DNA of 39,869 bases, from contig NZ_JYJG01000030.1 in the NCBI RefSeq assembly GCF_000955955.1, forward strand, positions 1 to 39,869, written 5' to 3'. The translations under genes were made by a program, and so were the position numbers. Shown here in pieces: positions 28-15,626 of this stretch. Under the pieces are notes generated by a model that was given only the letters and a program-made list of their open reading frames with translations, was not told the origin of the DNA and made no database searches. Source of the DNA: Lentzea aerocolonigenes. GTDB taxonomy: Bacteria; Actinomycetota; Actinomycetes; Mycobacteriales; Pseudonocardiaceae. The first letter of the stretch is position 1. Every line of letters starts with the position of its first letter.

Positions 28-1191
28 ATGTCAACGACCGAGTGGAGAACCGCCTTGACCGAACAGCTCATCTCCTGCGACGACCACATGGACCTGAGCC
101 AGCTGCCCGCCGACCTGTGGACCACGGGCCTGCCCGCCTCACTGCGCGACCGCGCGCCGCGGATCGAGGAACGCGACGGGCAGCCGATGTGGGTGTGCGA
201 GGGCAAGGTCTGGGGCCGCTGGGTCGGCAAGCCGGCCGCTGGCGGCAGTGCGCAACGGCCGGTCAAGGCGATCTACGACGCCTACGACCGCGCCGGCCTG
301 CACGACCCCAGCCCCCGCCGCGCCGCCGTGCCGGAGCTGCGGCTCGCCGACATGGACCGCGACGGGGTCGAGACGCAGGTCATCTTCGGGCCGGTGCGCC
401 AGCTGGCGGCCGACGACCCCGAGTTCCGCGCCGCCTGCTACCGCGCCTACAACGACTTCCTGCTCGACTTCTGCCAGACCGCGCCCACCCGGCTGATCGG
501 TGTGCCGATGCTGCCGGAGACGCCGCAGACCGCGCTCGCCGAGCTCCAGCGGCTGCTGGCGAAGGGGGGTGTGCGGCAGGTGGTCCTCATGATCGCCAAC
601 ATCGCCCCCTCGCTCGCCGACCGGGCGTGGGAACCGCTCTGGCACCTGCTGGAGGAGAGCGGCGTCGTCCTCTCCTGGCACATCATGGCTTTCGCCAAGC
701 CGGGTCCGCACATCGCGGGCAAGGCGGCCAGCGCGTTCGAGAACACCAAGCTGTTCCTCACGAACTTCGTCGAGCCGTTCGTCGACCTCTTCTCCTGGGG
801 CGTTCTCGAACGGCACCCGAAGATGCGCGTCGTGCTCGCGGAAGGCGGCGCGGGATGGCTGCCCTGGCTCGTCCAGGAGCTGGACCACCACCACTGGAAG
901 CTCTGGGAGGCCAAGGACTACTGGGCCGACAAGGGCGGCGCCGAGCTCGTCACCAAGCCCAGCGACCTCTTCAAGCGGCAGGTCTACGTGACGTTCCAGG
1001 ACGACCACGTGGCGATGGCGCTCATCCCGTTCTTCGGCGAGGACAACCTGCTCTGGGCGTCGGACTACCCGCATCCGGACAGCGTCTGGCCCTACTCCAA
1101 GGAGGCGATCGAGCGGCAGATGGGGCACCTGGCACCCGAACTGCGGCGCAAGCTGACCCACGACAACGCCGCCAAGCTGCTGGGGTTGTGA
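28..1191 (+). CDS. Amidohydrolase-family (PF04909-type) TIM-barrel metalloenzyme
   Basis: A 387-residue protein of the amidohydrolase 2 family, which includes ACMSD- and resorcylate-type decarboxylases and related C-C or C-N hydrolases acting on small carboxylates. Family signs are the N-terminal CDDHMD (H20, in place of the usual HxH), a barrel histidine in SWHIM (H218), the MRVVLAEGGAGWLPWL strand-helix block, and ASDYPHPDS near the C-terminus with the expected metal or catalytic aspartate (D346) followed by H349. The ATG at 28 is the first in frame; only 27 bases of upstream sequence are visible, so a longer protein cannot be excluded. It lies 65 bp before trpB in the same direction and may belong to the same biosynthetic cluster. 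The substrate cannot be read from the sequence. Loss of one histidine of the HxH pair is seen in some decarboxylase branches and makes simple hydrolysis less certain. Confidence 0.8.
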   Translation: MSTTEWRTALTEQLISCDDHMDLSQLPADLWTTGLPASLRDRAPRIEERDGQPMWVCEGKVWGRWVGKPAAGGSAQRPVKAIYDAYDRAGLHDPSPRRAAVPELRLADMDRDGVETQVIFGPVRQLAADDPEFRAACYRAYNDFLLDFCQTAPTRLIGVPMLPETPQTALAELQRLLAKGGVRQVVLMIANIAPSLADRAWEPLWHLLEESGVVLSWHIMAFAKPGPHIAGKAASAFENTKLFLTNFVEPFVDLFSWGVLERHPKMRVVLAEGGAGWLPWLVQELDHHHWKLWEAKDYWADKGGAELVTKPSDLFKRQVYVTFQDDHVAMALIPFFGEDNLLWASDYPHPDSVWPYSKEAIERQMGHLAPELRRKLTHDNAAKLLGL

Positions 1192-1205
1192 GCTGACGCA
1201 CGCGG

Positions 1206-1233
1206 CCGGTGTGGTTAACTTGCGCCCCACCGG
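1206..1233 (+). terminator. Hairpin between amidohydrolase gene and trpB
   Basis: CCGGTGTGG and CCCCACCGG form a 9-bp stem with one mismatch around a 10-base loop, followed by TTTG. It lies 15 bases after the amidohydrolase stop and 24 bases before the trpB start. It could be a weak terminator or simply leader structure; there is no long T run. Confidence 0.3.
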
Positions 1234-1256
1234 TTTGACGAGGATCTGAGACTCAT

Positions 1257-2513
1257 ATGTCCCCCAAGCTACCTGTCTGGGCGCCGGGACGCGAAGGCTA
1301 CTTCGGTGACTTCGGCGGTGCCTTCATCCCGGAAATGCTGCACGAGACGTTCGCGGAACTGCGCGCGGCGTTCGAGAACGCGTGCGACGACGAGACGTTC
1401 TGGCAGTCCTATGTGGACGTGACGGCCGGCTACGGTGGCCGTCCGACGCCGGTGACGTTCTGCGAGAACCTCACCCGCAAGCTGGGTGGCGCGCGGATCT
1501 ACGTCAAGCGCGAGGACCTGAACCACACCGGTGCGCACAAGGCGAACAACGTGATGGGCCAGGGTCTGCTGGTCCAGCGCATGGGCAAGAAGCGCGTCAT
1601 CGCGGAGACCGGTGCCGGCCAGCACGGCGTGGCCACGGCGACGATGGCGGCCCGCCTCGGCCTCGAGTGCACGATCTACATGGGCGAGGAGGACGTCGCC
1701 CGCCAGCACCCCAACGTCTTCTGGATGCGGCAGCTCGGTGCCGAGGTCATCCCGGTCACCGACGGCACGCGGACGTTGAAGGACGCGATCAACGCGTGCC
1801 TGCGGGACTGGGCCGACTCGATGGCCGACACCCACTACGTCATGGGCACGGTGTGCGGCCCGCACCCGTTCCCGCAGATGGTGACGTACTTCCAGTCGAT
1901 CATCGGCCAGGAGGCACGGGCGCAGATGCTCGCACTGGCGGGCAAGCTGCCGGACCGGGTGTACGCGTGCGTGGGCGGCGGCTCCAACGCGTCCGGGATC
2001 TTCACCGGCTTCCTCGACGACCTCTCGACCGAGCTGGTCGGCGTGGAGGCGGGCGGCAAGGGCATCGAGACGGGCGAGCACGCGGCGCGGCTCGCCGGCG
2101 GCAAGGGTGTTCCCGGTGTCGCGCAGGGCTACAAGACGGTCTTCCTGCAGAACGAGGAAGGCCTCATGCAGGACACGCACTCCGTGGCGGCGGGTCTCGA
2201 CTACATCGGCATCGGCCCGATGCTCGCGGACCTGCACGAGCAGGGCAGGGTCCGCTTCGAGTCGGCGACCGACCAGGAGGTCGTGGACGCCCTGCGGCTC
2301 ACGATGCGCAGCGAGGGGATCATCCCGGCGCTGGAGAGCTCCCACGCGTTCGCCGCCGCGTTCCGCGAGGCACCGTCCCTTTCGGACGATGACGCGATTC
2401 TGATCAACCAGTCCGGCCGTGGCGACAAGGACATCTTCACCGTCGCCGACGCGCTGGACGACGAAGGGTGGAAGACCTTCATCCGCGAGACGGCTGCGAG
2501 GTACGCGCGATGA
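1257..2513 (+). CDS. trpB: Tryptophan synthase beta chain (divergent copy)
   Basis: A 418-residue PLP enzyme that joins indole, or an indole-like nucleophile, to serine. The PLP lysine is K95 in HTGAHKANN, the catalytic glutamate is E117 in AETGAGQHG, the phosphate-binding loop is GGGSNAS (240-246), and the C-terminal SGRGDKD block is present. All core residues are intact, so it should be active. It differs from housekeeping TrpB in the segment GLDYIGIGPMLADL, where the usual VGPEH/VGPQH reads IGPML. The ATG start has a GAGGAT about 11 bases upstream. The stop overlaps the trpA start (ATGA), so the two are translationally coupled and should form the usual alpha-beta complex. No trpE, trpD, trpC or trpF flanks the pair; instead it leads into an NRPS-type cluster. 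I infer a dedicated, possibly horizontally acquired pair supplying Trp or an analogue, or acting on a related substrate. Confidence 0.93.
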   Translation: MSPKLPVWAPGREGYFGDFGGAFIPEMLHETFAELRAAFENACDDETFWQSYVDVTAGYGGRPTPVTFCENLTRKLGGARIYVKREDLNHTGAHKANNVMGQGLLVQRMGKKRVIAETGAGQHGVATATMAARLGLECTIYMGEEDVARQHPNVFWMRQLGAEVIPVTDGTRTLKDAINACLRDWADSMADTHYVMGTVCGPHPFPQMVTYFQSIIGQEARAQMLALAGKLPDRVYACVGGGSNASGIFTGFLDDLSTELVGVEAGGKGIETGEHAARLAGGKGVPGVAQGYKTVFLQNEEGLMQDTHSVAAGLDYIGIGPMLADLHEQGRVRFESATDQEVVDALRLTMRSEGIIPALESSHAFAAAFREAPSLSDDDAILINQSGRGDKDIFTVADALDDEGWKTFIRETAARYAR

Positions 2514-3307
2514 ACACGACCTACTCGTCGACCCTCGAAGCCTCGCTGCGGAAGCGGCAGACCGGCAAGTCGATCCTCTTCATGTCGCACGTCGTCGTCG
2601 GCTACCCGTCCCTCGACGCCAACTGGGCGATGCTCGAGGCGATGGACGACGCCGGCGTGGACGTGGTCGAGTTCCAGCTCCCGTTCTCCGAGCCCATCGC
2701 CGACGGCCCGCGGTTCGTGAAGGCGAACCACGAGGCGATCAGGGCGGGGACCTCGTGGCAGCAGTACTTCGACCTGGCGACGCGGGCCGCCGCGCGGTTC
2801 AGCTTCGAGATCGTGCTGATGGGCTACTACAACAGCGTCTTCCGGATGGGGCCAGAGAGGTTCTGCGCGCGCCTGGCCGAGACCGGCATGAAGGGGTTCA
2901 TCGTCCCTGACCTGCCGGTGGAGGAGGCGGGGGAGCTCAACGGGCTGGCTCGTGAGCACGGGCTGGACCCGATCCTCACGATGACGCCGACGAACTCGCC
3001 CGCACGGCTGGCCGAGATCGGCCGCAACGCGTCGGGCTTCCTGTACTGCGTGGCGCGCACGGGCGTGACGGGCCGGCAGACTGACCTCTCCTCCGAGGTG
3101 GGGTCGTTCCTGCGGAGGTGCCGCGAGGCGACGCCGTTGCCGCTCGGTCTCGGGTTCGGCATCAGGTCGGCCGAGAACGTGCGGCAGGCGCGCGAGCACG
3201 GTGCCGACCTCGCCATCGTGGGCACCGCGGGAACGCAGGCGTGGGAGGAAGGCGGGCCCGAGGCGTACTCGCGGTTCCTGAAGTCCCTGGCGGCCGCGAC
3301 CGCGTGA
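2510..3307 (+). CDS. trpA: Tryptophan synthase alpha chain (divergent copy)
   Basis: A 265-residue TIM-barrel protein that normally cleaves indole-3-glycerol phosphate and channels indole to TrpB. The two catalytic acids are in place: E54 in VVEFQLPFSE and D65 in EPIADGP. The surrounding motif reads PFSEPIADGP rather than the common PFSDPLADGP, and the SRSGVTG block reads ARTGVTG. These are marks of a minor TrpA lineage. The ATG at 2510 overlaps the trpB stop. An in-frame ATG at 2468 would add 14 residues that belong to the trpB reading region and lack family similarity, so I rejected it. A strong hairpin terminator follows 20 bases after the stop, so trpB-trpA is its own transcript, perhaps with the amidohydrolase gene. 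Indole-glycerol-phosphate lyase activity is the default expectation; an altered substrate is possible given the context. Confidence 0.92.
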   Translation: MNTTYSSTLEASLRKRQTGKSILFMSHVVVGYPSLDANWAMLEAMDDAGVDVVEFQLPFSEPIADGPRFVKANHEAIRAGTSWQQYFDLATRAAARFSFEIVLMGYYNSVFRMGPERFCARLAETGMKGFIVPDLPVEEAGELNGLAREHGLDPILTMTPTNSPARLAEIGRNASGFLYCVARTGVTGRQTDLSSEVGSFLRRCREATPLPLGLGFGIRSAENVRQAREHGADLAIVGTAGTQAWEEGGPEAYSRFLKSLAAATA

Positions 3308-3326
3308 CGGTGCGGCAAGTCGCTTG

Positions 3327-3357: not shown

Positions 3358-3414
3358 TGTTCTCCGCCAAGGACAATCGTTCAACCGGTCGGCTTCACGG
3401 GGTGAAAACCCTTG

Positions 3415-3429: not shown

Positions 3430-4619
3430 TGACGTCTACCGCCATGCTCACCCCCAGTCAGCGCGCGGAGCGGGCTCTCCCGGTGCTCAGGGAGAACGCG
3501 CGCCGGGTGGACGGCGACGCGGTGTTCCCCGCCGAGTCCCTCGCGGCACTGCGGGAGGGCGGGCTGATGGGCCTGCTGGTCCCGGTCGCCGACGGCGGGC
3601 TGGGCGGCGGGCTCGGCGATCTGGTGGACACGGCGCAGCTGCTGGCGTCCGCGTGCACGTCGACCGCGATGATCTGGGCGATGCACTGCCAGCAGGTCGA
3701 CGTCGTGGTCCGGCACGGCAGCCCGGCGCTGCGGGCCCGGCTGCTGCCGAGGATCGCGGCCGGTGAGGTCTACCTCGCGTCGATCACCTCGGAGAAGCAG
3801 ACCGGCGGGCACCTGCTCACCAGTGCGGCTCCCTTGCAGCACAACGACAACGGCGTTCTCGTCGAACGGGTCGCGCCGATCGTCACCGGTGGCGCGGTCG
3901 CGGACGGCTTCCTGATGACCATGCTGGACGCGCCGGGAGCGTCGCCGCGCGAGGTCACGCTCGTCTACGCCGACCGCGAGCAGCTCGACGTGCGGGTCAG
4001 TGGCGACTGGAACCCGTTGGGCATGCGCGGCACCCACAGCGTCGCGTTGACGTTGTCCGGTGTGGTGCCCGAGGACCAGATCGTCGGTGCCCGCGGCGAG
4101 TTCGGCGAGGTGGCCGTCAGCAGCATGATCCCGCTGGCGCACCTGGCGTGGGCCGCGTGCTGGCTCGGCACCGCCCGCCAGGCGCTGTCCGATCTGGTCA
4201 CCGTGTTCCGGTCGCCGGGCCGCCCGCGTTCGGTCGACCTGAAGTCGGACCTGGTCGCCGAACGGCTGGCGCGCGTCCGCATGGACGTCGAGGTGGTGAG
4301 CGCGTACCTGCGGCAGACCGAACAGGAGATCTCGCGCTGCCGGGCCGGCGGCGGGGACCTGTCCGCGACGCCCGTGCAGATTCACCTCAACACCCTGAAG
4401 GTGATCGCCGCGGAACTGACGTACCGCGCGGCCGACCAGTGCGTCCAGCTCGGCGGGATGGCGCTGGGCTACCTCGCCGACGCGCCCGTGCCGTTCGAAC
4501 GCCACCTGCGCGATCTGCGGTCCGCGAGCCTGAACTACGCCAACGACAGGCTGCTCACCGCGAGCGGAACGCTGTGCCTGCTGGACAAGTCGGTGAGTCT
4601 GCTCGGCGACCGTGCGTGA
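3429..4619 (+). CDS. Acyl-CoA dehydrogenase-like flavoprotein 1
   Basis: About 396 residues with the acyl-CoA dehydrogenase fold: a helical N-terminal domain, a middle beta domain (LASITSEKQTGG, MRGTHSVALTLSG) and a C-terminal helical domain with QLGGMALGYL and RHLRDLRSASLNYAND. The family's usual catalytic glutamate is not obvious. Relatives in specialised metabolism act on carrier-bound aminoacyl groups (PltE/RedW type) or as flavin monooxygenases. The gene ends just ahead of a free-standing carrier protein, so oxidation of a carrier-bound substrate is a reasonable inference. The start is uncertain: GTG 3429 fits a leaderless transcript and ATG 3444 is the alternative; neither has a ribosome site. 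A TTG at 3324 is excluded because it falls in the terminator. It begins a plus-strand run with the carrier and condensation genes. Confidence 0.85.
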   Translation: MTSTAMLTPSQRAERALPVLRENARRVDGDAVFPAESLAALREGGLMGLLVPVADGGLGGGLGDLVDTAQLLASACTSTAMIWAMHCQQVDVVVRHGSPALRARLLPRIAAGEVYLASITSEKQTGGHLLTSAAPLQHNDNGVLVERVAPIVTGGAVADGFLMTMLDAPGASPREVTLVYADREQLDVRVSGDWNPLGMRGTHSVALTLSGVVPEDQIVGARGEFGEVAVSSMIPLAHLAWAACWLGTARQALSDLVTVFRSPGRPRSVDLKSDLVAERLARVRMDVEVVSAYLRQTEQEISRCRAGGGDLSATPVQIHLNTLKVIAAELTYRAADQCVQLGGMALGYLADAPVPFERHLRDLRSASLNYANDRLLTASGTLCLLDKSVSLLGDRA

Positions 4620-4647
4620 GCCGCTGACCACCACGACCGGAGCGGAG

Positions 4648-4902
4648 ATGCCCGTGGCAGCAGAGTGGCCGCCGGAGTTCGAGAAGGTTCTGCGCGAGCA
4701 TCTGCCGTTGCTGCCGGCCGGCGAGCAGCTGGCGCCGGACGCGCAGCTGTCGGCCATCGGCCTGGACTCGCTGTCGATCGTGCAGCTGCTGATCACGCTG
4801 GAGGACACCTTCGCGGTGGAGATCCCCGACGAGCTCCTCAGCGTCAGGACGTTCGCGACCGCGGGCGCGTTGTGGACGGCGATCAGCGGGCTGCTCGGAT
4901 GA
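4648..4902 (+). CDS. Free-standing acyl/peptidyl carrier protein
   Basis: An 84-residue carrier protein with the phosphopantetheine motif GLDSLS at residues 39-43 (S41 modified). Helix II follows as IVQLLITLEDTFAVEIP, a typical four-helix carrier pattern. The ATG at 4648 has GGAG five bases upstream; a GTG at 4654 has an equally good site, and a GTG at 4612 that would overlap the previous gene lacks one. It starts 28 bases after the flavoprotein gene, and its stop overlaps the start of the condensation gene (ATGA). As the only carrier in the window it is the likely partner of the separate adenylation enzyme, the condensation protein and one or both flavoproteins. It should be loaded by a phosphopantetheinyl transferase encoded elsewhere. 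Confidence 0.93.
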   Translation: MPVAAEWPPEFEKVLREHLPLLPAGEQLAPDAQLSAIGLDSLSIVQLLITLEDTFAVEIPDELLSVRTFATAGALWTAISGLLG

Positions 4903-6212
4903 GCGCGCCGGTGATCCGCGAACTGGTCCTGCCCGTCACCGGGGAACGCGCCGGTCGCGCGCCGCTGAGCTGGGCACAGCGCGTCCAGTGGAACGACACT
5001 CAGGCGATCGCTCCGGACGACCACCACTTCAACCTGGCTCGCGTGGTCGAGGTTCCGCCCGGCTGGACGACCCCGGAACTGGCCGGTCTGCTCGCCGCGC
5101 TGACCGGGCGGCACGAATGCCTGCGCACCAGGTATCTCGTGGACGCGGACGGGAACCCGTATCAGGAGGTCTTCGAGCAGGACGAGCTGCGGATCGCGGT
5201 GCACGAGGCGGTGGACGTGGATGCGTTGCGCGGCAAGAGCTTCGACCTGACCGGACTTCCCGTTCGAATGTCCGTTGTGGAGTCCGGAGGGGTGCCGCGA
5301 CAGCTCGTGCTGGTGCTGTCCCACGTCACCATCGACTTCGCCGGGGCCAACCTGCTGGTCGACGAGCTCCGGTCGTTGCTGGCGGGGGAGGTCTCGCTCG
5401 ACGGGCTGCCACCCGTGGCGCACCGGCAGTTCGACGAGGCCGCGCGGCAGGCCACCCCGGCAGGGCAACGCCGGTCGGCGGCATCCCTGCGGTACTGGGA
5501 GAAACTGCTGCGCGAGTCGCCTCTCACGATCTTCGGCCCGCCGGTTGCCGGCGACGCGGACCGCTTCGGGCAGCTCAGCATGTCCTCACCCGCGCTCACC
5601 GCGGCGACGACCACGGTCGCGCGCCGCATGGGCGTCAGCGGCACCACCGTGGTGATGGCCGCGGTGAACGTCATGCTGGGCCGCATCACCGGGCAGACCG
5701 CCGTGCCGTTGCGCCTGATCGCCTCCAACCGCGGGCTCACCGAGCTGCGCGACGTCGTCGGCATCACGCTGGGCAGCTGCGCGATCCTGGTGCCGACGCG
5801 CGGCCGGTCCTTCGCCGAAGCCGTCTGGGACACGGCGGAGGCCACGATGCAGGCCTACCGCAGGGCGCAGTGCGATCCGGTCGCGCTGACCGCGCTGCGG
5901 GCCGCGGTGAGCGCCGAACGCGGCGTCGACGAGATCGAGATGTCCTGTGGTTTCAACGACATCCGCGTTGCTTCAGCGTCTGTTGTGGACGGTTATCAGG
6001 ACGCGGTCGGTCTGCTGTCGCGCACCGGGTTCTCGTGGCAGACCCCGCTGCCCGAGCAGGAGAGCAAGCTCTGGTACTGGGTGCGGGAACAGGACGGCGT
6101 GGACGTGCACCACGCGCTGGTCGACACCTGGTACCTGCCCCGGGAGCGGGCGGAGACGCTGGTGCGGGGTGTGGAGCACCTGGTGGTCACCGCGGCGGCG
6201 TCGTGCCAGTGA
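4899..6212 (+). CDS. Free-standing NRPS condensation-fold protein with degenerate active-site motif
   Basis: A 437-residue protein of the condensation/chloramphenicol-acetyltransferase fold. N-terminal PLSWAQRVQW matches the C1 core and RHECLRTRY the C2 core. The HHxxxDG motif reads SHVTIDF: the second, catalytic histidine (H142) and the aspartate (D146) remain, while the first His is Ser and the Gly is Phe. The region VPLRLIASNRGL to VGITLGSC resembles the later C cores. It is not fused to any adenylation or carrier domain and is coupled to the carrier gene by an ATGA overlap. It should join the carrier-bound residue to an amine, an alcohol or a second acyl group. The changed motif may mark a sub-family using an unusual acceptor or a non-amide bond. 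Its stop lies six bases from the stop of the converging adenylation gene, with no terminator between them. Confidence 0.87.
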   Translation: MSAPVIRELVLPVTGERAGRAPLSWAQRVQWNDTQAIAPDDHHFNLARVVEVPPGWTTPELAGLLAALTGRHECLRTRYLVDADGNPYQEVFEQDELRIAVHEAVDVDALRGKSFDLTGLPVRMSVVESGGVPRQLVLVLSHVTIDFAGANLLVDELRSLLAGEVSLDGLPPVAHRQFDEAARQATPAGQRRSAASLRYWEKLLRESPLTIFGPPVAGDADRFGQLSMSSPALTAATTTVARRMGVSGTTVVMAAVNVMLGRITGQTAVPLRLIASNRGLTELRDVVGITLGSCAILVPTRGRSFAEAVWDTAEATMQAYRRAQCDPVALTALRAAVSAERGVDEIEMSCGFNDIRVASASVVDGYQDAVGLLSRTGFSWQTPLPEQESKLWYWVREQDGVDVHHALVDTWYLPRERAETLVRGVEHLVVTAAASCQ

Positions 6213-6217
6213 CCCGG

Positions 6218-7786
6218 TCAGCCTGAGGTGGCGAGCGCCTTGTGGTCGATCTTGCCGTTGCGGGTCATCGGCAGCTCTTGGACGTGCTGCCACCGCTTGG
6301 GCACCATCGCCGCGGGGAGCAGCCCACCGAGGAACTCCTTGAGGTCGCCCGGTGCCGGGGAACCACCATCGGTCACGTAGTGCGCGACCAGCACCGGTCC
6401 GTCCTGGGTCGGTTCGGTGACGACCGCGCAGTGCGCGACCAGGTGATGACGTTTGAGCGCAGCCTCGATCTCGTCCAGCTCCATCCGGACTCCGGCGACC
6501 TTCACCTGCCGGTCGCCGCGGCCGAGGTAGTGCACCAGTCCGTCGCGGAAGACCGCCAGGTCACCGGTGCGGTACAGCCGGCCGGTCGCGGAGCCGGGGT
6601 CCAGGACGTCGGAGAGGAAGGCCGCCGCGGTCAGCTCCGGCTCGCCGAGGTATCCCCGGCCCACGCAGATCCCGCCGACGAACAGCTCACCCGGCTCGCC
6701 CTCGGCGGCGGCCCGCCAGCCCCCGTCGTGCTGAACGAGCAGGTACAGCACGGCGTTGGCGATGGGCGCGCCGACCGGCAGCCGGGTCGCGGTGAGGTCC
6801 GCCCGCCGGACCACGTGGTGCGTCACGTCGTCCGAACATTCAGTGGGGCCGTAGGCGTTCATCAGCGCGACGTGCGGCAGCTCGTCCATCACCGCCTCGG
6901 CGACCGGCGGGTGCAGCTCCTCCCCGGTGGAGATGCACCAGCGCAGCGCCGGGAGCCGTTCACCGGAGCGCCTGGCCTGCGCGGTCATCCAGCCGACCAC
7001 CGTCGGTACGAGCTCGACGACGGTGATCTCGTTCTCGCGCAACGTGGTCAGCAACCGGCGGGGGAACGACACCTGCTGCTCGTCGAACACGACCGTCGTC
7101 GCCCCGGTCAGCACGCCGATCGTCATCTGCCAGATGGAGATGTCGAACACCAGCGGCGCGGTGAACGCCACGACGTCCGCCGCGGTCAGCCCGAGGTCGA
7201 GAACCTTGGCCCGCAAGTGGTTGAGCATGCCGCGCTGCTCGACCACGGCGCCCTTGGGCATGCCGGTGGTGCCGGAGGTGAAGATCACGTACCGCGGCTC
7301 CGCGCCGGCCGGTGCGCGGTGGGGAACAACGGGCGAGTCGGCCTGCCACCGCGGCAGCCGCAGCGACGGCACACCGGCGGGCGGCTCGCCTTCCTGGTGG
7401 ACGAGCAGCGTCACGCCGGCCTGCCGGACGATCACCTCGGTGCGCGCGACCGGCCAGGCCGGGTCCAGCGGCAGGTAGATCGCGCCGATGTCCTCCAGCG
7501 CCAGGAAGAGCGCGATGGTGTCGGCGCTGCGCCGGCCGAGCAGGGCGACGACGTGGCCCTCGCCGATGCCGGCGGCGAGGAGCAACTCGCGCAACTGCCG
7601 CACCCGTCCGGCGAGAGCGCGATAGGTCACCACGTGCTCACCGTCGACGACGGCCGGTTTGGCGGGGGTGGCCGTCGCGAACCTGGCCAGCTCACCGACG
7701 ACCGAGTGCAGTGGCTCGAACGCGTGTGCGCGGGTCAGGGCGCGCTGCCTGGCCAGTGCGGCTTCTGCCTGCGTGATCTCCAGCAT
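6218..7786 (-). CDS. Free-standing NRPS adenylation enzyme
   Basis: A 522-residue amino-acid-activating enzyme (ANL superfamily) without carrier or condensation domains. Core motifs in order: A3 FTSGTTGMPKG (169-179), A4 FDISIWQ, A5 NAYGPTE (310-316), A7 YRTGDL (405-410), A8 GRGDRQVKVAGVRMELDEIE (422-441) and A10 TRNGKID (508-514) with catalytic K512. Reading the GrsA-equivalent pocket by eye gives D-I-W-E-I-T-A-D-D-K. D235 marks an alpha-amino acid, and the three extra acidic positions (E278, D330, D331) suggest a cationic or amino-bearing side chain. That is inference; I do not assign a named substrate. The ATG directly follows the stop of the upstream flavoprotein gene (TGAATG) with GGAG before it, so the two form one minus-strand operon. 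Its presumed partner is the carrier at 4648. Confidence 0.93.
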   Translation of the reverse strand: MLEITQAEAALARQRALTRAHAFEPLHSVVGELARFATATPAKPAVVDGEHVVTYRALAGRVRQLRELLLAAGIGEGHVVALLGRRSADTIALFLALEDIGAIYLPLDPAWPVARTEVIVRQAGVTLLVHQEGEPPAGVPSLRLPRWQADSPVVPHRAPAGAEPRYVIFTSGTTGMPKGAVVEQRGMLNHLRAKVLDLGLTAADVVAFTAPLVFDISIWQMTIGVLTGATTVVFDEQQVSFPRRLLTTLRENEITVVELVPTVVGWMTAQARRSGERLPALRWCISTGEELHPPVAEAVMDELPHVALMNAYGPTECSDDVTHHVVRRADLTATRLPVGAPIANAVLYLLVQHDGGWRAAAEGEPGELFVGGICVGRGYLGEPELTAAAFLSDVLDPGSATGRLYRTGDLAVFRDGLVHYLGRGDRQVKVAGVRMELDEIEAALKRHHLVAHCAVVTEPTQDGPVLVAHYVTDGGSPAPGDLKEFLGGLLPAAMVPKRWQHVQELPMTRNGKIDHKALATSG

Positions 7787-9103: not shown

Positions 9104-10450
9104 ATGCCCGCCAGTCATGTCGAGATCGGCTCGGTCAAGCTGATGCGGTGGTTGAACGCGCGCAAGCTGACCGTGTCGGCGTTCAGCGCGGCGATCGGCG
9201 TCGACGCCGCCCAGGTCGAGGCCGGCCTCGGCGGTGACGTCCTGCGCTGGGAGCCCGGCCTCGCCACCCGCGCTGCCGAGGCCCTCGACGTCGGCGTGGA
9301 GCAGCTGGCCGTGGTCCCCGCGGCGGAAACGGCCGTGCACCTGTCCGCCGCCGCGTCCAGGGCGGGCAGCAGGGTGGTCCGCCGGGGTGGCATCGACTTC
9401 TACGTCTACTACTCGCTCGCCGGACCTCGCGGGCAGGTCGCGCCGGTCATCCTGGACATCCTGTGCCCGCCGGGCCGCCTGCCGGAGCTCAACCGCGGGC
9501 ACCTGGAACCCGCGATCACGGTGAACCTCGGGCCGGGGGACATCAACGGCCGCTGGGGTGAGGAGCTCACCGGCGACACCTGGTCCGTGCTCGCCGCGAA
9601 CACCGGCGAGGACCGCTGGATCACCGGCGACTCCTACGTCGAGCCGTCGTTCTGCCCGCACACCTACTCGCTGGTCGGCGACGAGCCGGCGCGCATCCTG
9701 TCCTACACCGGCGCCAGTCCGCTGGCCGGGCTGGTCGACCGCGCGGACACGTGGCCGGCCGAGTCGTTCGCCGCGCTGCTCGACGACGTCGGCGAACGGC
9801 TGGAGCCCGCGGGGATCCTCGCCCAGGCCATGCGCCGCCGCGCGTTCGACGTGAAGACGCTGTGCTCGGCGGCCGGTGTGGACGAGCGTTCCGTCGGGGA
9901 CTTCCTCGGCGGCGCGGACTCGCTCGACCTCGCCGCGCTGCGGCGGGGGGGCGCGACCGTCCACTGCGACTACCGGTTGCTGCTCCCGGTCGACGTGGTC
10001 AGGGACGGCGTGGGCAAGTCGTCGCGCACGATCCAGGAGAGCAAGGACTCGATCAGGTCCTTCGGCGAGTACGTGGTGGCCGACCTGGCGGGATCGCCGT
10101 CCGCACCGGACCTGCTGGGCACGTTCCTGCTCGTCGACCGCGCCGAGCACGGCGAGCTGACCGACCTGCGCGATCAGGCGGCGACGTTCTACCTGGTCAC
10201 CAGTGGTACCGCGACCGCCCACTGGTGGACCGGCGGCGAGGTCCGCAGGCAGGAACTGGGGCAGTGGGACAGCCTGTGGATCGGCCCGGGGGTGGCGCAC
10301 GGGTTCACCGGGCAGGCCGGCCTGCTGCGCATGGGCGACGCGAGCTCGTACTCGTACGCGGACACGCTGGAGCTGACCAACACCTACCGCCCCGCCTGGA
10401 CGCTCGGCCGGGCGCGGCACGACCGGCAGGGCTGGGGGTACGACCGGTGA
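9104..10450 (+). CDS. 2-hydroxyethylphosphonate dioxygenase (HEPD)-like double-cupin iron enzyme
   Basis: A 448-residue protein with an N-terminal helical HTH-like part, then tandem cupin halves. N130-x-x-H133 in NRGHLEPAITVNLG, and E180 with H186 in YVEPSFCPHTY, match the HEPD facial triad (H129, E176, H182) and N126 with a constant +4 offset. R94 and Y102 in the RRGGIDFYVYY stretch match HEPD substrate contacts R90 and Y98. HEPD cleaves the C-C bond of 2-hydroxyethylphosphonate with O2. Methylphosphonate synthase uses Gln as its third ligand, so this protein resembles HEPD more. Automated annotation may call such proteins XRE/cupin regulators because of the N-terminus. AGGAAAGGGA precedes the ATG. 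Its stop overlaps the next gene's GTG. No PEP mutase is visible, so either a phosphonate is supplied from elsewhere or the substrate has changed. Confidence 0.85.
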   Translation: MPASHVEIGSVKLMRWLNARKLTVSAFSAAIGVDAAQVEAGLGGDVLRWEPGLATRAAEALDVGVEQLAVVPAAETAVHLSAAASRAGSRVVRRGGIDFYVYYSLAGPRGQVAPVILDILCPPGRLPELNRGHLEPAITVNLGPGDINGRWGEELTGDTWSVLAANTGEDRWITGDSYVEPSFCPHTYSLVGDEPARILSYTGASPLAGLVDRADTWPAESFAALLDDVGERLEPAGILAQAMRRRAFDVKTLCSAAGVDERSVGDFLGGADSLDLAALRRGGATVHCDYRLLLPVDVVRDGVGKSSRTIQESKDSIRSFGEYVVADLAGSPSAPDLLGTFLLVDRAEHGELTDLRDQAATFYLVTSGTATAHWWTGGEVRRQELGQWDSLWIGPGVAHGFTGQAGLLRMGDASSYSYADTLELTNTYRPAWTLGRARHDRQGWGYDR

Positions 10451-11688
10451 CCGCCACGCAGACACCGGCGGCCACGCTGACCGATCCCGACCTGCTCGGC
10501 TTCGACCCCGTCCGGCTCGGCCGCGTCCGTGAGGTGCTCACCGCCCACGTCGGCCAGGGCCTCACACCGGGCGGGGTGTTCGCGGTCCACCGGCGCGGGC
10601 GGCTCGCGTGCCTCGAGTCGTTCGGCAGGCGCGACCCCGCCCGTCCGGAACCGATGACGATCGACTCGATCTTCCGCATCGGGTCGATGACCAAGCAGTT
10701 CACCGCCATGGCCACGCTCGCGCTCGTCGAGCAGGGCCGGTTGCTGCTGTCCGACAGCATCTCCGCGTTCCTGCCCGAGTTCGAGAACGTCACCGTGACC
10801 GCGGATCCGGTCAACGCGGACTCCCCGGACGTCCCCACGTGCGCCCCGATCCGCCCGCCGACCGTACGGGACCTGCTGATCCAGACGAGCGGCATCGTGG
10901 GCGGGTACAAGGGGTCGCCGGGAGTCCTGCGGGCGTACCGGGCGCGCGGCGTCCGCGGGTTCGACCACCAGAGCGCCGCTCTCACCGCAACGACCCAGCA
11001 GCTGGTCGAACGGCTCGCGACGGTGCCGCTCGCGCACCAGCCGGGCACGGTCTGGGAGTACGGCCTGTCCTACGACGTGCTCGGCCGGCTGCTGGAGGTG
11101 GCGAGCGGGCAGGGACTGGACGAGCTGGTCGGGGACCTGGTGCTCGGCCCGCTCGGCATGACGAGCACCGGGTTCTGGGTGCCAGGGAGCGACGCGGACC
11201 GGGTCGCCCAGCCGGACCGGACGCTCGCGCCGGACCAGGAACTGCTCACCCTCACGTCCCGGCCCGCGTTCCTGTCCGGCGGAAGCGGGTGCTACTCGAC
11301 CATCACCGACTACCTCAACCTGCTGCTGTGCGTGGCGGGCCGCGGCGTCGCGGTGGACGGGACCAGGGTGCTCAGCCCCCGGTTCGCGGACCTGATGCTC
11401 GCCGACCACCTCGGTGACCTGGCCGAGAGCGGTCCGGACTACATCCCCGGCACCGGGTACACGTTCGGTCTCGGGCTGGCGGTGCGCCGGCCCGTCGCCG
11501 GTCACGCCCCCGGGACGCCGGGCGACTACTGGTGGCTGGGCCGGGGGTCGACCGTCTTCTTCGTCGATCCCGCCGAGGACCTGATCGCCGTGCTGCTCAT
11601 GCAGAGCTCGTGGCAGGTCCGGTGGTGGCAGGCCCGCCGCTACCACGAGCTGTTCCGCGACCTCGTGTACCAGGCGATCGTCGACTAG
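10447..11688 (+). CDS. Class C beta-lactamase-fold serine hydrolase/acyltransferase (EstB/LovD type)
   Basis: A 413-residue penicillin-binding-protein-like serine enzyme. The nucleophile motif is S80-M-T-K83 in RIGSMTKQFTAMA; the second motif tyrosine is Y205 in WEYGLSYDVLGRLLE. The third motif reads WLGRGSTVFFVDP (363-375) rather than KTG, as in esterases and acyltransferases of this fold. There is no signal peptide, so it is probably cytoplasmic and not a cell-wall enzyme or secreted lactamase. It starts at a GTG overlapping the dioxygenase stop (GTGA). No thioesterase domain is present in the cluster, so it is a candidate for releasing or transferring the carrier-bound product, as LovD does in lovastatin assembly. 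That role is inference; a resistance or prodrug-hydrolysing role is also possible. Confidence 0.83.
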   Translation: MTATQTPAATLTDPDLLGFDPVRLGRVREVLTAHVGQGLTPGGVFAVHRRGRLACLESFGRRDPARPEPMTIDSIFRIGSMTKQFTAMATLALVEQGRLLLSDSISAFLPEFENVTVTADPVNADSPDVPTCAPIRPPTVRDLLIQTSGIVGGYKGSPGVLRAYRARGVRGFDHQSAALTATTQQLVERLATVPLAHQPGTVWEYGLSYDVLGRLLEVASGQGLDELVGDLVLGPLGMTSTGFWVPGSDADRVAQPDRTLAPDQELLTLTSRPAFLSGGSGCYSTITDYLNLLLCVAGRGVAVDGTRVLSPRFADLMLADHLGDLAESGPDYIPGTGYTFGLGLAVRRPVAGHAPGTPGDYWWLGRGSTVFFVDPAEDLIAVLLMQSSWQVRWWQARRYHELFRDLVYQAIVD

Positions 11689-11702
11689 CCGGGAGAGGAC
11701 AC

Positions 11703-13007
11703 GTGACGACGTACTGGGAGCGGGCGTGCCACTTCTTCCGCACGACAGGGCTCGCCGGCACCGCGGGCAGCTACTTCATCCACAACAAGAACGAGGAGAA
11801 CGTCAAGATCGGGGTTCGGCCGCGGCTCTCGGTCTCCGTCGACGAATCTTCTGTGAGCCTGACAGCCGGCGGACGGCGAACGGTCGCGCCCCGGCTGCCG
11901 GGGGAACTGGTCTTCGGGCGCGTCCGGGAGCTGCTGCTCGACTCCGCGCCGTACTTCTTCCTGGTCAGCCCTGATCTTCGCCGGCCGTTCGCCGATCCCG
12001 GCCACCCGCAGGTCCTGCTGGTCCAGCCCGCGGTGGAGTTCACGTTCTCGCCCGAGCACGCCGACGGGACGGTCAGCCACGGGCACGACGGAGCCGCTCT
12101 GCTCCAGGCCGCCGCGCAGACGCCTCCGGTTGCGCCGCGCGACCTCGGGGAGCCAGGACCGTTCGCCGAGCTGGCCACCGGGTGGGTGCCGGCCGAGGAC
12201 GACTCCGCGTTCCTCCGGCGGCTCGTCGACGCCGTCGAGGTGCTTCAGGGCCATCCTGACGGGAAGGTGGTGCTGACCAGGGCTTACGAACGGAAGCTGG
12301 GCACCACGAACGATCCGTTCGCGCTGTACGAGTCGCACGCCAGGAACAACGGCGAGTACGCGTGCAGCCACTACTTCTGCGTGCGGCCGGGCGTCTTCTC
12401 CCTGGGAGTCACCCCGGAGAACGTTCTGGAGACCCGCGACACGACGTTGACGGTGGACGTCGTCGCGGCCACCTGCGCCGGCAGCGACGACGACGCGTTC
12501 GTCGCGCGGGAGCTGTACGAGAACCCGAAGCAGGTCAGGGAACACCGGTCGTCGCTGGTCAACCGGCAGAACCGGTTCCGGCCGTTCTGCGCGGAGGGGT
12601 CGATCCGGGTCGTCACGGACATGCGGGTCAAGCGGTTGCGCAACGTCTGCCACCTGCACTCGGTGTTCACGGGCGAGCTGCTGCCGGGGGTCACGGTCTT
12701 CGACCTGCTGGAGCCGATCTTCCCGTTGCTCGGGGCGCGGCCGAAGGAGCTGCTCGTGCTCGCCGACGCCGAAAAGGCCCCGCACCGTTACTACGGAGGT
12801 GTGGTGGGGCATGGGCACGGAAGGTCCGCTTCCTGTTTCCTGAACATCCGGAACGCATTGCTGGACCACGACACGATCCACGCGAAGGTCGGGGTCGGCG
12901 TCATCAAGGAATCCGATCCGCACAGCGAGCTGGTGGAGACCAGGGACAAGCTGTCGGGGTTGCTCGAGGCAATCGTTTCATGGGAGCGGAGCGTTCAACG
13001 CGAATAG
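11703..13007 (+). CDS. Chorismate-binding enzyme, divergent (anthranilate/isochorismate/ADIC synthase fold)
   Basis: A 434-residue member of the TrpE/MenF/PabB fold, starting at GTG with GGGAGAGGAC upstream. Recognisable blocks: EH in KQVREHRSSLVNRQ, the catalytic-site histidine in NVCHLHSVFTG, RYYGGVVGHG, then GVGVIKESDPHSELVETRDK, equivalent to the TrpE block AGAGIVxDSDPExEYxET. Other conserved blocks have changed: the chorismate-binding GTxTGAPK loop is shortened to PLLGARPKEL without its threonine, and the AGTRPRG block reads AATCAGS. There is no glutamine amidotransferase domain or neighbour. It may aminate or rearrange chorismate, use a chorismate derivative, or have a new reaction. It sits in line with the dioxygenase and serine hydrolase genes and suggests that an aromatic or cyclohexadiene unit enters the product. 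Confidence 0.8.
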   Translation: MTTYWERACHFFRTTGLAGTAGSYFIHNKNEENVKIGVRPRLSVSVDESSVSLTAGGRRTVAPRLPGELVFGRVRELLLDSAPYFFLVSPDLRRPFADPGHPQVLLVQPAVEFTFSPEHADGTVSHGHDGAALLQAAAQTPPVAPRDLGEPGPFAELATGWVPAEDDSAFLRRLVDAVEVLQGHPDGKVVLTRAYERKLGTTNDPFALYESHARNNGEYACSHYFCVRPGVFSLGVTPENVLETRDTTLTVDVVAATCAGSDDDAFVARELYENPKQVREHRSSLVNRQNRFRPFCAEGSIRVVTDMRVKRLRNVCHLHSVFTGELLPGVTVFDLLEPIFPLLGARPKELLVLADAEKAPHRYYGGVVGHGHGRSASCFLNIRNALLDHDTIHAKVGVGVIKESDPHSELVETRDKLSGLLEAIVSWERSVQRE

Positions 13008-13043
13008 TAGGAACGTGATTGTGGCGATGTGAGGATGGGCGCC

Positions 13044-14144
13044 ATGGAATTCAGTGCCGAAGCGCGGCTCATTCACACGGGGACCGCACGGGCGATCGGC
13101 TCGCCGGTGGGGCCGGCGCTGACGCTCACGAGCACATACGTGTCGCACGGCGTCCACGACCCGTCGCTGCCCGCCTACGGGCGCAACACGAACCCCGGCT
13201 GGCAGGACGTCGAGCACGCGCTGGCCGTGATCGAGGGCGAGGGGTGCCAGGCGGTCGTCTTCTCCTCCGGCCAGGCCGCCGCCATGGCGTTGATGCTGAC
13301 GCTCAGCGAAGGCCGCGAGCGGCTCGTGATGCTCGACGACGGTTACTACAAGCTCCGGAACCTGGCGACCAAGCTGCGTCCGCACGGTGTCGAGGTGGTG
13401 ACCGTCGACCTGCTCGACCTCGACGCCGTGGAGACGGCGATCGGCGCGGGCCCGTCGGTCCTGTGGGGAGAGACGCCGACCAACCCGTTGCTGCGAGTCG
13501 CCGATCTGGCCGGGCTTTCCGCACTGGCGGACGCGGCGGGCACACCGTTCGTCGTGGACAACACGGTCGCGACGGCGTTGCAGCAGAAGCCTCTCGAGTT
13601 CGGTGCGCTCGCGTCGGTGTACTCGCTGACCAAGTCGCTGTCCGGGCACTCGGACGTGCTCGGTGGCGCGGTGGTCACGCGGTCGGCCGAGCTGGCGGAG
13701 TCGCTGCGGGCGTGGCGCGGTACCGGCGGTGCGATCCTCGGGCCCTTCGAGAGCTGGCTGGTGCTGCGCGGGCTGAAGACGTTGCCGCTGCGGCTCGAAC
13801 GCCAGTCGCAGAACGCGCTGGCCGTCGTGGAGTTCCTGGAACGGCATCCGCGGGTGACGGCAGTGCACTACCCGGACGGGCCGCTGGTGAAGACGCAGAT
13901 GCCGAACGGGGCGGGCTGCCTGCTCGCGTTCGAGCTGTCCGGCACGGTCGCCGACGCGGACGCCGTCGTGGCCGCCGCCCGGCTGATCGTTCCGTCGACG
14001 AGCTTCGGCGGTGTCGAGTCGACCTGGGAACGCCGTGCCCGCTGGGCCGCCGAGACCGCTCCGGACACGCTGATCCGCATCGGCACGGGCGTCGAACCGG
14101 CCGCGGACATCATCGCCGACCTGAGCCAGGCCCTGCGCGCGTGA
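13044..14144 (+). CDS. Cystathionine gamma-synthase/lyase-family PLP enzyme
   Basis: A 366-residue fold-type I PLP enzyme of the Cys/Met metabolism family. Internal landmarks are YGRNTNPGWQDVE, VFSSGQAAAMA, LWGETPTNPLLRV, FVVDNTVAT and the PLP lysine K197 in YSLTKSLSGHSDVLGG; the C-terminal SFGGVESTWERR and RIGTGVEPAADIIADL close the fold. Family members do gamma- or beta-replacement or elimination on amino acids such as O-succinylhomoserine or cystathionine. ATG 13044 matches the usual N-terminus; GTG 13029 and ATG 13035 are in-frame alternatives, and GAGG lies about 10 bases before 13044. It follows the chorismate enzyme by 36 bp and precedes the kinase, so it probably makes or modifies an unusual amino acid for the cluster. 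A housekeeping role in methionine metabolism is less likely here. Confidence 0.88.
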   Translation: MEFSAEARLIHTGTARAIGSPVGPALTLTSTYVSHGVHDPSLPAYGRNTNPGWQDVEHALAVIEGEGCQAVVFSSGQAAAMALMLTLSEGRERLVMLDDGYYKLRNLATKLRPHGVEVVTVDLLDLDAVETAIGAGPSVLWGETPTNPLLRVADLAGLSALADAAGTPFVVDNTVATALQQKPLEFGALASVYSLTKSLSGHSDVLGGAVVTRSAELAESLRAWRGTGGAILGPFESWLVLRGLKTLPLRLERQSQNALAVVEFLERHPRVTAVHYPDGPLVKTQMPNGAGCLLAFELSGTVADADAVVAAARLIVPSTSFGGVESTWERRARWAAETAPDTLIRIGTGVEPAADIIADLSQALRA

Positions 14145-14179
14145 CCGTCCTGAGTGGACGTTGATTCGAGAGGAGTGGG

Positions 14180-14860
14180 ATGAAGATCGATCTGGCGCCG
14201 CACGGTCAGCCCGGAACGCTGCTGGTGGTGTGCGGCTTCGACGGCAGCGGCAAGACCACGCTGGAGGAGGCCCTGGTGGCCGCCGTCGCGCCGGTGCGCC
14301 CGTGCGTGGCCACGTGGACGCCGACGGCCTGGTGGCGCCAGGACGCGAACATCCGGCGAACCCTCTACGGCGAGGGCGAGGGGCAGGTGCTCCCGGAGGA
14401 CGCTCTGATGCACTTCAACCTCGCGGACTGCCACGCGCATCAGGCGAACGTGATCCTGCCCGCCCTGGCCCGCGGCGAGGTGGTGATCGGCAACCGCTAC
14501 CTCTACGACATGCTGGCGCTGTTCGAGGCCCGCGGTTACACCCAGCCGGAATGGCTGCCGGCGGCGATGTCCGGCCTCGTCCAGCCGGACTTCTCGTTCG
14601 TCATCGACGGTTCCGCCGAGCTGATGGTCGACCGGGTGGTGCGCCGCGACGGTGCGCGGGAGGGCAGGTTCGACCAGGACGTGGCGTTCGTGGAACGCTT
14701 CAACACCGCCCTGCGCCAGATCGCCGAGGACAACGACCTGACGTTGTTGCAGACCGACGCCGACCCGCTCAGCAACCTGAAGCAGTGCCTGGAAGTGTTG
14801 TCCGGCAACGTGGCCGGGATGACGTCCGTCGCCACCCCGGCCGGGCTCCAGGTCAGCTGA
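14180..14860 (+). CDS. Thymidylate-kinase-like P-loop kinase
   Basis: A 226-residue P-loop protein of the dTMP/deoxynucleoside kinase group. Walker A is GFDGSGKT (19-26); IGNRYLYD (103-110) matches the DRY/NRY motif of these kinases, and RRDGAREGRFDQD is a likely lid. The start has AGAGGAGTGGG directly upstream. It is unlikely to be the housekeeping tmk: the middle region (TPTAWWRQDANIRRTLYGEG) is unusual and the gene is in a biosynthetic run, 35 bp after the PLP-enzyme gene. It may phosphorylate a pathway intermediate or inactivate the product for self-protection; the substrate is unknown. Its 3' end overlaps that of the converging methyltransferase-like gene by eight bases. Confidence 0.82.
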   Translation: MKIDLAPHGQPGTLLVVCGFDGSGKTTLEEALVAAVAPVRPCVATWTPTAWWRQDANIRRTLYGEGEGQVLPEDALMHFNLADCHAHQANVILPALARGEVVIGNRYLYDMLALFEARGYTQPEWLPAAMSGLVQPDFSFVIDGSAELMVDRVVRRDGAREGRFDQDVAFVERFNTALRQIAEDNDLTLLQTDADPLSNLKQCLEVLSGNVAGMTSVATPAGLQVS

Positions 14861-15626
14861 CCTCGATCTCGAACAACGTGTCGGCACTCGTGACGGGCAG
14901 CTTTCCGGCGGCGACGATGCGCGCGCTGATGCCCTGCGCGGACGCCGCCGCGACGTACCGCGCCACGTCCGCCTCGTTCATCCGCTTCTCCGGCCCCCGC
15001 AACCGGTAGAAGTCGAGCAGCGTGGCGCGGGGAATGGAACCGTGGTCGGACAGGCTCTGGTCGAGCAGGTCCCCCGCCTTGGCGTAGTCGATCTCCATCG
15101 CCTCGGCGTCGAAGAACTCGGCTGTCCTGCCCGCCTTGTCCGCCACCGCGATCAGCGCGCGATCCCGTTCGTAGAGCCCCAGCCGGATCGTGGTGCGCAA
15201 CCGCCCGCCCGGCGCGAGCAGGCTCAGCAGCCCCGGCACGCCCGCCAGCGCCTCGGCGTCGGTGAACCGGTTGACGAGCCGGTCGGCCAGTACGAGGTCG
15301 AACCGACCCTTCAACCCGGCGGGCGCGGGGGCGGTGGCGTCGTAGTGCTCGACCGCACAACGACTCCCGGCCGGCCACTCCTGAATCGCCTCCAGCAGTG
15401 CGGTCCGCTGTCCCTCGGCGAAGTCGAGCACGGTCACGCCGACGCCGCGGTCGACGGCGGCCCGAATCAGGTGGACCGTGGACGCACCGACGACGGCGAG
15501 CGAGGTACCGCTGTCCACGCCGTCGAGATAGGCCTCGAGGTCCTCGCCGACGGGTCCACCGTTGTAGCTGGCGGCCCAGTAGTCGCTGCCGATGAGGTCC
15601 CACGCGCTGGACTTCGGATTCCCCAT
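14853..15626 (-). CDS. Class I SAM-dependent methyltransferase-fold protein
   Basis: A 257-residue protein with a Rossmann-type methyltransferase core. Motif I is LAVVGASTVH (43-52), an acidic residue ends strand 2 (VTVLDF, D68), and FDLVLADRLVNRFTD is motif IV-like, followed by LLSLLAPGGRLRTTIRLGLYERD. Motif I lacks the classical GxGxG, so SAM binding is likely but not certain. A C-terminal part with SIPRATLLDFYRLRG and MNEADVARYVA may bind the substrate. AAGGACGTGAC precedes the ATG. It converges on the kinase gene with an eight-base overlap and lies 106 bp downstream of the MerR-type gene on the same strand. It may tailor the cluster product or be the right-hand edge of the cluster. Confidence 0.75.
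   Translation of the reverse strand: MGNPKSSAWDLIGSDYWAASYNGGPVGEDLEAYLDGVDSGTSLAVVGASTVHLIRAAVDRGVGVTVLDFAEGQRTALLEAIQEWPAGSRCAVEHYDATAPAPAGLKGRFDLVLADRLVNRFTDAEALAGVPGLLSLLAPGGRLRTTIRLGLYERDRALIAVADKAGRTAEFFDAEAMEIDYAKAGDLLDQSLSDHGSIPRATLLDFYRLRGPEKRMNEADVARYVAAASAQGISARIVAAGKLPVTSADTLFEIEVS

Follow-up and report, generated by a model that had tools for sequence, protein, structure and literature searches.

The window analysed here is the whole of contig NZ_JYJG01000030.1 (C461; 39,869 bases, numbered from its first base) in the genome of Lentzea aerocolonigenes (assembly GCF_000955955.1; G000). Its first 15.6 kb carry a biosynthetic gene cluster in which a predicted 2-hydroxyethylphosphonate dioxygenase (HEPD) stands with a second tryptophan synthase pair (TrpB and TrpA, together TrpBA), a chorismate-binding enzyme of a distinct clade (ChorB) and three parts of a nonribosomal peptide synthetase (NRPS). 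The product appears to be an undescribed phosphonate, that is, a carbon-phosphorus compound, and the pairing of the additional TrpBA with ChorB stands out most. Gene calls and family searches confirmed the gene families proposed in an initial annotation at or near their predicted positions, with adenylation (A), peptidyl carrier (PCP) and condensation (C) functions as three separate proteins. Most of the cluster genes are open frames with the expected third-position GC pattern. They are listed below, with percentages giving identity to the proteins of an orthologous cluster in a second genome (G1291).

28-1191, plus strand: AH, amidohydrolase-superfamily protein (Amidohydro_2, Pfam 102.9 bits; 80%; nearest solved relative PtmU3, PDB 6omp, 135 bits)
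1257-2513, plus strand: TrpB, second copy in the genome (TIGR00263 588 bits, cut-off 392; 78%)
2510-3307, plus strand: TrpA, second copy in the genome (TIGR00262 201 bits, cut-off 102; 63%)
3444-4619, plus strand: flavoprotein 1 of acyl-CoA dehydrogenase (ACAD) fold, FadE16/SfnB-like (family search; best match in the G1291 cluster 27%, no clear orthologue)
4648-4902, plus strand: discrete carrier protein, PCP (PF00550; serine in GLDSL)
4899-6212, plus strand: discrete condensation protein, C (PF00668 75 bits; SHVTIDF motif)
6218-7786, minus strand: discrete adenylation protein, A (TIGR01733 335 bits, cut-off 317)
7787-8932, minus strand: ACAD2, flavin monooxygenase-like protein 2 of ACAD fold, HsaA/HpaB-like (PF08028 97 bits; 65%)
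9104-10450, plus strand: HEPD, predicted (PDB 3rzz/3g7d, 387 bits; 65%)
10447-11688, plus strand: beta-lactamase-family serine hydrolase/transesterase (PF00144 177 bits; SMTK; 72%)
11703-13007, plus strand: ChorB (PF00425 122.6 bits, longer frame 11532-13004; 57%)
13044-14144, plus strand: Cys/Met-metabolism enzyme dependent on pyridoxal phosphate (PLP) (PF01053 267.6 bits; 69%)
14180-14860, plus strand: thymidylate-kinase-like P-loop kinase (PF02223 48 bits, cut-off 27; 60%)
14853-15626, minus strand: MT, methyltransferase-like protein (76%; nearest solved relative PDB 3iv6, 157 bits)

The first gene, AH, did not enter the reasoning of the initial annotation; it is the best-conserved member of the cluster between the two genomes. 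MT is present as annotated, but its family label is weak (Pfam 17.6 bits vs a cut-off of 27). The serine hydrolase carries the SxxK motif shared by the beta-lactamase family and LovD-type transesterases, and acyl transfer is predicted for it. Azetidine or vinylglycine chemistry from the Cys/Met enzyme and MT was also considered and dropped, as a literature search gave no support.

The dioxygenase hints at the chemistry of the cluster. Annotated at first as HEPD-like, it belongs to the right family and can be placed more closely, as a relative of true HEPD: it is ~46% identical to authentic PhpD along the full length. Seven residues (K16, R90, Y98, N126, H129, E176 and H182 in PhpD numbering) are kept in 12 of 12 aligned sequences, comprising the window protein, its G1291 counterpart and ten more. 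We take His129, Glu176 and His182 to be the iron triad of PhpD, and Lys16, Arg90, Tyr98 and Asn126 to bind the phosphonate. Position 180 is Cys in PhpD itself and was left out of the count. Methylphosphonate synthase, which presumably has Gln in place of the iron-binding Glu176, was rejected as an identity, Glu being present at this position in all 12 sequences. The enzyme is thus predicted to turn 2-hydroxyethylphosphonate into hydroxymethylphosphonate. Among the best 120 protein-database matches listed (75 weaker ones lie beyond), it falls in a subclade of nine sequences, itself included, at 63-100% identity (P0197-P0205), the other 111 reaching at most 49%. Of three relatives outside the subclade with readable surroundings, two (L002, L003) belong to loci of the phosphinothricin type, and the third (L007, G051) has an iron alcohol dehydrogenase (Fe-ADH), phosphoenolpyruvate (PEP) mutase (PepM) and phosphonopyruvate decarboxylase (Ppd) as neighbours. 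This company, together with the conserved residues, points to a phosphonate pathway; no PepM is among the families found for the window genes. Counting its own genome, HEPD occurs in 4 of 99 related genomes and in 2 of 24 of the genus. The locus in G051, a member of another genus of the family (L007, L008; G051:C2:518000-552000), also holds an aldehyde dehydrogenase (AldDH) and a 2-hydroxyacid dehydrogenase and is close to genes for an oligopeptide ABC transporter. The second of the two matches in the genus of the window genome comes from another species and is an apparently decayed HEPD fragment with an internal TAG (L009; G011:C15:11053-11598).

A PEP mutase search of the whole genome returned one strong match, PepM at C471:96675-97484, near the end of another contig. 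This protein carries EDKLFPKRNS and its G1291 counterpart EDKTFPKRNS, both fitting EDKX5NS, the motif described as diagnostic of PepM in PMC12723261. PepM is followed by Ppd and Fe-ADH fused in one open frame of ~749 codons (C471:97477-99726; L010, L013, L014) and then, in order, by AldDH, a PhpE-like 2-hydroxyacid dehydrogenase, a transporter, a GNAT protein, a diaminopimelate-decarboxylase-like protein, DUF6271, PhyH, SbnB and SbnA. SbnA and SbnB pass the NCBIfam equivalogs TIGR03945 and TIGR03944, SbnA with 367 bits vs a cut-off of 350 and SbnB with 395 vs 327. The terminal genes of C471 encode a thiamine diphosphate (ThDP) enzyme, an ELFV dehydrogenase, a second 2-hydroxyacid dehydrogenase, a short-chain dehydrogenase and an ACAD (ACAD0). 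On the same strand and directly before PepM, C471 ~87.3-96.6 kb (L013:9341-18555) holds genes for GH3, a 6-phosphogluconolactonase-like protein, a ROK kinase, a dehydroquinate-synthase-like protein, an unassigned protein, a DegT aminotransferase, a ribulose-phosphate epimerase, a HAD phosphatase and NTP_transf_5. In composition the group is similar to cyclitol or aminoshikimate pathways; it may be either part of the phosphonate cluster or a neighbour of it.

Both gene sets meet in one other genome. G1291, which we infer to be Nocardioides campestrisoli since its ChorB and HEPD stretches are unchanged in P0052 and P0204, proteins bearing that name, is the one genome of 341 in the family of G808 with a ChorB (E 1e-20), and its cluster lies on a single contig of 4,206,296 bases. 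Ten window genes recur there together (AH, TrpB, MT, hydrolase, Cys/Met enzyme, HEPD, ACAD2, TrpA, kinase and ChorB), and their grouping is therefore more than chance. The same stretch of ~35 kb also holds PepM, Ppd, AldDH and a PhpE-like 2-hydroxyacid dehydrogenase, in addition to AurF, AsnB and MFS genes of its own. Left of its AH lie genes for ThDP, ELFV, second 2-hydroxyacid dehydrogenase, ACAD2 and ACAD0 proteins; the ThDP, ELFV (amino-acid dehydrogenase), second 2-hydroxyacid dehydrogenase and ACAD0 proteins have matches of 65, 68, 67 and 70% in the terminal 5.6 kb of C471, so that four of the five genes at the C471 end have counterparts, the exception being the short-chain dehydrogenase. 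On the right, the methyltransferase-like gene is the last shared gene in both genomes. A FAD-linked oxidase gene follows Ppd in G1291 (L046:13374-14669). These comparisons bear out the proposal that the genes are inherited together: they stand as a set in the one other genome that could be read around ChorB, scattering was not seen, and a search of the 389 other genomes of the family did not find ChorB.

The arrangement in G1291 also suggests how the two Lentzea contigs fit together. ACAD0, the final gene of C471, leaves 23 bases to the contig end, and AH begins at base 28 of C461, 27 bases in from the assembly end that cuts the cluster. The two contig ends form complementary arms at 13 of 15 positions, a level reached by 41 of 20,000 pairs of random stretches. 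GC-rich hairpins are a usual break point in short-read assemblies. With these end arms and the gene order of the orthologous cluster, the end of C471 and the start of C461 are likely, rather than certain, to be adjacent in the genome. The joint cluster most likely runs from C471 at ~96.7 kb through the contig end to C461 at 15.6 kb, which gives ~36 kb or more, and it may begin further left. The impression of a compact cluster is thus not supported, as base 1 is a contig end and the missing half appears to be the PepM pathway on C471.

Nor is there support for the supposition that the cluster is built around its NRPS parts. The A, PCP and C families and the PCP serine were confirmed, and yet tblastn with the three window proteins found no gene for any of them in the 80 kb read around the G1291 cluster. 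One PCP-like hit there (E 0.02) falls within ChorB itself and was rejected as a carrier protein. Because these genes are missing around the orthologous cluster, the NRPS parts are most likely an accessory and variable layer. SbnA and SbnB are likewise absent from the 20 G1291 proteins searched. Judged by identity between the two clusters, which is lower for the early genes than for the others compared, the conserved core is the HEPD-TrpBA-ChorB set, with early steps and an amide-forming step that vary. In the A protein, core motifs read by eye give the pocket DIWEITADDK, whose acidic residues would, we assume, fit a diamino acid. The idea that one activated amino acid is joined to a unit made by the other enzymes remains plausible.

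The tryptophan synthase genes in the window add to another pair at C327 of the same genome, to which the window TrpB is 54% and TrpA 34% identical. With its catalytic Glu and serine-binding loop motifs intact, TrpB keeps the PLP lysine, the Glu of AETGAGQHG, GGGSNA and SGRGDKD, and TrpA its general Glu and Asp; the pair may make tryptophan from indole and serine, but its gate residues are changed. At positions 289 and 290, which we take to be the Leu-His tunnel gate, the window TrpB has A289 and Q290, whereas 19 ordinary TrpB sequences (a set that includes genome G756 twice) have L in 18 and F in one at the former and H in all 19 at the latter. The Ala-Gln gate recurs in G1291, and GPEH is GPML in the window and GPLL in G1291. 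The window TrpA belongs to a lineage unlike the ordinary actinobacterial TrpA compared. Its odd residues H27, Q56 and E61 recur in 118-120 of the 120 relatives listed, which include metagenome-assembled genomes named Rokubacteria and Dehalococcoidia, and are thus traits of the lineage; special alteration of TrpA for this cluster was rejected on that ground. Plasmid relatives of TrpA, TrpB, AH and MT are all below 60% identity, the nearest for AH (51%, Sphingopyxis) and MT (39%, Cereibacter) lying in other neighbourhoods. On the Cereibacter sphaeroides plasmid (L056), the MT relative is flanked by genes for a Cys/Met-type PLP enzyme and an asparagine-synthase-like protein, both distant; the same three kinds occur in the G1291 cluster.

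ChorB had been called degenerate, a description that its relatives contradict. The catalytic lysine, glutamate and metal ligands are invariant in 70 of 70 sequences (invariant positions K188, E239, E280, R383, E409, E412; three fragments were dropped from 73 sequences, and database matches numbered 76). The idea of a dead enzyme was dropped, as these residues are intact and the clade is coherent. General base Lys, general acid Glu, metal-binding Glu and the fold, which is that of MbtI and Irp9, place ChorB by sequence among the menaquinone, siderophore and tryptophan (MST) enzymes. The lysine is presumably that of the water-using chorismate enzymes. Two signatures of the solved members aligned are altered: the Arg of GTR is Cys in 68 of 70 and the first Glu of KExxEH is Gln in 65 of 70.

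The relatives of ChorB bear names from Actinomycetota and Pseudomonadota, with S. anulatus, S. spongiae and Catellatospora methionotrophica among the sources. At E 1e-40 ChorB was found in its own genome only, both among 390 genomes of the family and among 394 of the class, and in none of 392 presumed Streptomyces. The family of G790 gave matches in 4 of 267 genomes (E 1e-20) at 28-34% only, which puts them outside the clade. Viral contigs yielded four pattern matches and no relative, and plasmids no member of the clade, all 192 records being below 60% identity and the best listed at ~30%. ChorB and TrpA relatives occur on contigs of identical size eight times, vs 0-2 times in 40 shifted controls (72 ChorB rows, 117 of 120 TrpA rows, one TrpA label being wrong, and 8 HEPD rows), although equal size is not proof of the same contig and two of the eight are below 2.3 kb with different sources. 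The other six are on contigs of at least 12.7 kb with no HEPD relative among the 120 listed. ChorB thus often seems to be on contigs with this type of TrpA, including some on which no member of this HEPD clade was found. Short-contig matches were not trusted, as one TrpA-HEPD size match (1448) is physically impossible, and the comparison of ChorB with HEPD (55 ChorB rows, 94 of 119 HEPD rows) omitted short contigs. For the S. anulatus and Ralstonia proteins of the two lists, contigs differ in size and linkage was not shown. Seven TrpA have a contig size in common with ChorB or the HEPD clade. The 14 tips nearest the window protein include just one of them, P0088, at weak support (0.25), and do not include the G1291 TrpA, which also told against a specially altered TrpA.

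By analogy with the phosphinothricin tripeptide (PTT) and argolaphos pathways, the former (php) with steps as we take them to be, the phosphonate branch can be drawn as follows. PepM would convert PEP to phosphonopyruvate, and the fused Ppd/Fe-ADH would carry this through phosphonoacetaldehyde to 2-hydroxyethylphosphonate. The window HEPD would then form hydroxymethylphosphonate, from which PhpE-like and PhpJ-like dehydrogenases might yield phosphonoformaldehyde or phosphonoformate. A conserved module, comprising the ThDP enzyme, the ELFV and second 2-hydroxyacid dehydrogenases, the ACAD flavoproteins, AH, TrpB, TrpA, ChorB, the Cys/Met enzyme, the kinase, the MT-like protein and the serine hydrolase, would build and attach a second unit, aromatic or derived from an amino acid, with TrpBA and ChorB as its dedicated biosynthetic enzymes. 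In the accessory layer of the Lentzea genome, SbnA and SbnB would make L-2,3-diaminopropionate, which the free A protein would activate, PCP carry and C join. Taken together with this pathway, we regard it as quite probable that C461 holds the right-hand 15.6 kb of a phosphonate cluster and that the right end of C471 holds its left part. The sequences themselves show the gene content, the orthology, the conserved residues and the early phosphonate genes of the genome, whereas contig adjacency, the individual reactions, the A substrate, the roles of TrpBA and ChorB and the product are inferred.

Several observations weigh against this reading. The ends of C471 and C461 share no exact overlap. 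Neither PepM protein reaches the TIGR02320 cut-off of 319.55, with 285.6 bits for C471 (278.5 in a second scan) and 254.2 for G1291, where the gene call is short at its N-terminus. PepM, Ppd, PhpE-like and PhpJ-like proteins are only 46, 37, 51 and 52% identical between the two genomes; because the others compared reach 57-80%, these early genes may result from an exchange or contribute to a different product. No Fe-ADH is among the 20 G1291 proteins searched. The dehydroquinate-synthase, aminotransferase and kinase group before PepM could be a separate cluster. In the C protein, SHVTIDF stands at HHxxxDG, with the second His and the Asp kept and the first His and the Gly lost. The code DIWEITADDK was not matched in the literature searched, and activation of L-2,3-diaminopropionate is suggested by a pocket read by eye.

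The role of TrpBA admits two alternatives. The pair could be an insensitive copy for self-resistance, the product being a phosphonate mimic of indole-glycerol phosphate or glyceraldehyde phosphate that inhibits tryptophan synthase. TrpA inhibitors of the phosphonate class are known, and both the presence of a second, divergent pair beside the one at C327 and the similar alteration of the TrpB gate in two genomes would fit such a role. The deviations in TrpA are, however, traits of its lineage, and this type of TrpA shares its six larger contig sizes with ChorB where no listed HEPD relative occurs, so that it also seems to travel without this HEPD clade; self-resistance is considered unlikely. 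Somewhat less likely again is that TrpBA and ChorB only provide more tryptophan, or more of some other ordinary aromatic building block, for incorporation into the product. Intact catalytic motifs and scores above the NCBIfam tryptophan synthase cut-offs in both subunits favour such a supply function, but the TrpB gate departs from that of ordinary enzymes, ChorB has the lysine that we associate with water-using chorismate enzymes, and the family searches of the 28-15626 genes returned no amidotransferase, trpC, trpD or trpE. That the C471 and window genes serve different products, with HEPD acting on some other substrate, would agree with the contig gap and the weaker conservation of the early genes but is highly improbable, given the single ~35 kb stretch with both sets in G1291 and the seven iron- and phosphonate-binding residues kept by HEPD.

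A further conceivable route would make TrpA and TrpB a pair that builds phosphonates. The phosphate site of TrpA, an enzyme that ordinarily sets glyceraldehyde phosphate free, might hold a phosphonate aldehyde from the HEPD branch and join it to an aromatic unit supplied via ChorB; TrpB, with its rebuilt gate, might then add this or another non-indole nucleophile to serine, giving an aryl- or indole-phosphonate amino acid. To our knowledge no such route to these amino acids has been described, and the proposal is a long shot, ranked below both alternative roles of TrpBA.

C461 carries further genes beyond the cluster. Beside the boundary, on the minus strand at 15733-16452, one chain holds two MerR-type DNA-binding domains. 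A 460-aa gene without a family match, followed by VWA_CoxE, MoxR-type AAA and DUF5682 genes (17100-23698), resembles a MoxR-VWA-type system. A GH31 glycosidase with an F5/8 type C domain, a DeoR-type regulator, a hexose kinase, a class II aldolase and a ROK kinase (24295-30546) suggest a sugar-use operon.

According to PMC12723261, phosphonate products find use as drugs and herbicides unusually often, and beyond the first steps their gene clusters diverge widely. The pathway had been thought undescribed, and no description of this gene combination was found in the open-access literature searched, a search that left most subscription papers uncovered. Within that literature the extra TrpBA, ChorB, AH, Cys/Met enzyme and kinase form a gene set not seen with phosphonates. 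Solving the chemistry of ChorB once could explain several unknown clusters, because ChorB and this TrpA type also seem to share contigs on which no member of this HEPD clade was found and ChorB relatives bear names from Actinomycetota and Pseudomonadota. A practical lesson is that, with PepM hidden by the contig break, one would take this cluster for a small NRPS cluster.

Among known systems, the PTT locus (php; S. viridochromogenes DSM 40736, L003, with a similar locus in OK074, L002) resembles the cluster in its HEPD (45-46% identical to the window enzyme) and its NRPS parts. The PhpE-like and PhpJ-like proteins of G1291 are 59-60% and 50% identical to those of L002/L003, next to identities of 51% and 52% to the C471 proteins. 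Within 21 kb around PhpD, however, only HEPD and generic A and C domains match the window; TrpBA, ChorB, AH, Cys/Met enzyme and kinase have no relative there, and the gene neighbourhood of HEPD in PTT loci is not that of the window. Argolaphos biosynthesis (alp; PMC8976061) shares PepM, Ppd, Fe-ADH and HEPD followed by hydroxymethylphosphonate oxidation, as well as a short phosphonopeptide with an unusual basic amino acid. It differs in that AlpG is termed a class II HEPD in PMC8976061, whereas the alignment of the window enzyme to PhpD spans its length, and the word tryptophan is absent from the main text of that paper. The SbnA/SbnB pathway is matched by a C471 pair that passes curated cut-offs but stands beside a phosphonate pathway. 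The salicylate and isochorismate synthases MbtI, Irp9, MenF and EntC are ~20% identical to ChorB, which matches 23 NCBIfam models but reaches the cut-off of none, and ordinary TrpAB shares the catalytic motifs of the window pair but differs in the TrpB gate and GPEH. Read from its genes, the cluster is thus of a known kind, a phosphonate cluster, and what appears to be new is a core that combines an extra TrpBA and ChorB with AH, a Cys/Met enzyme and a kinase.

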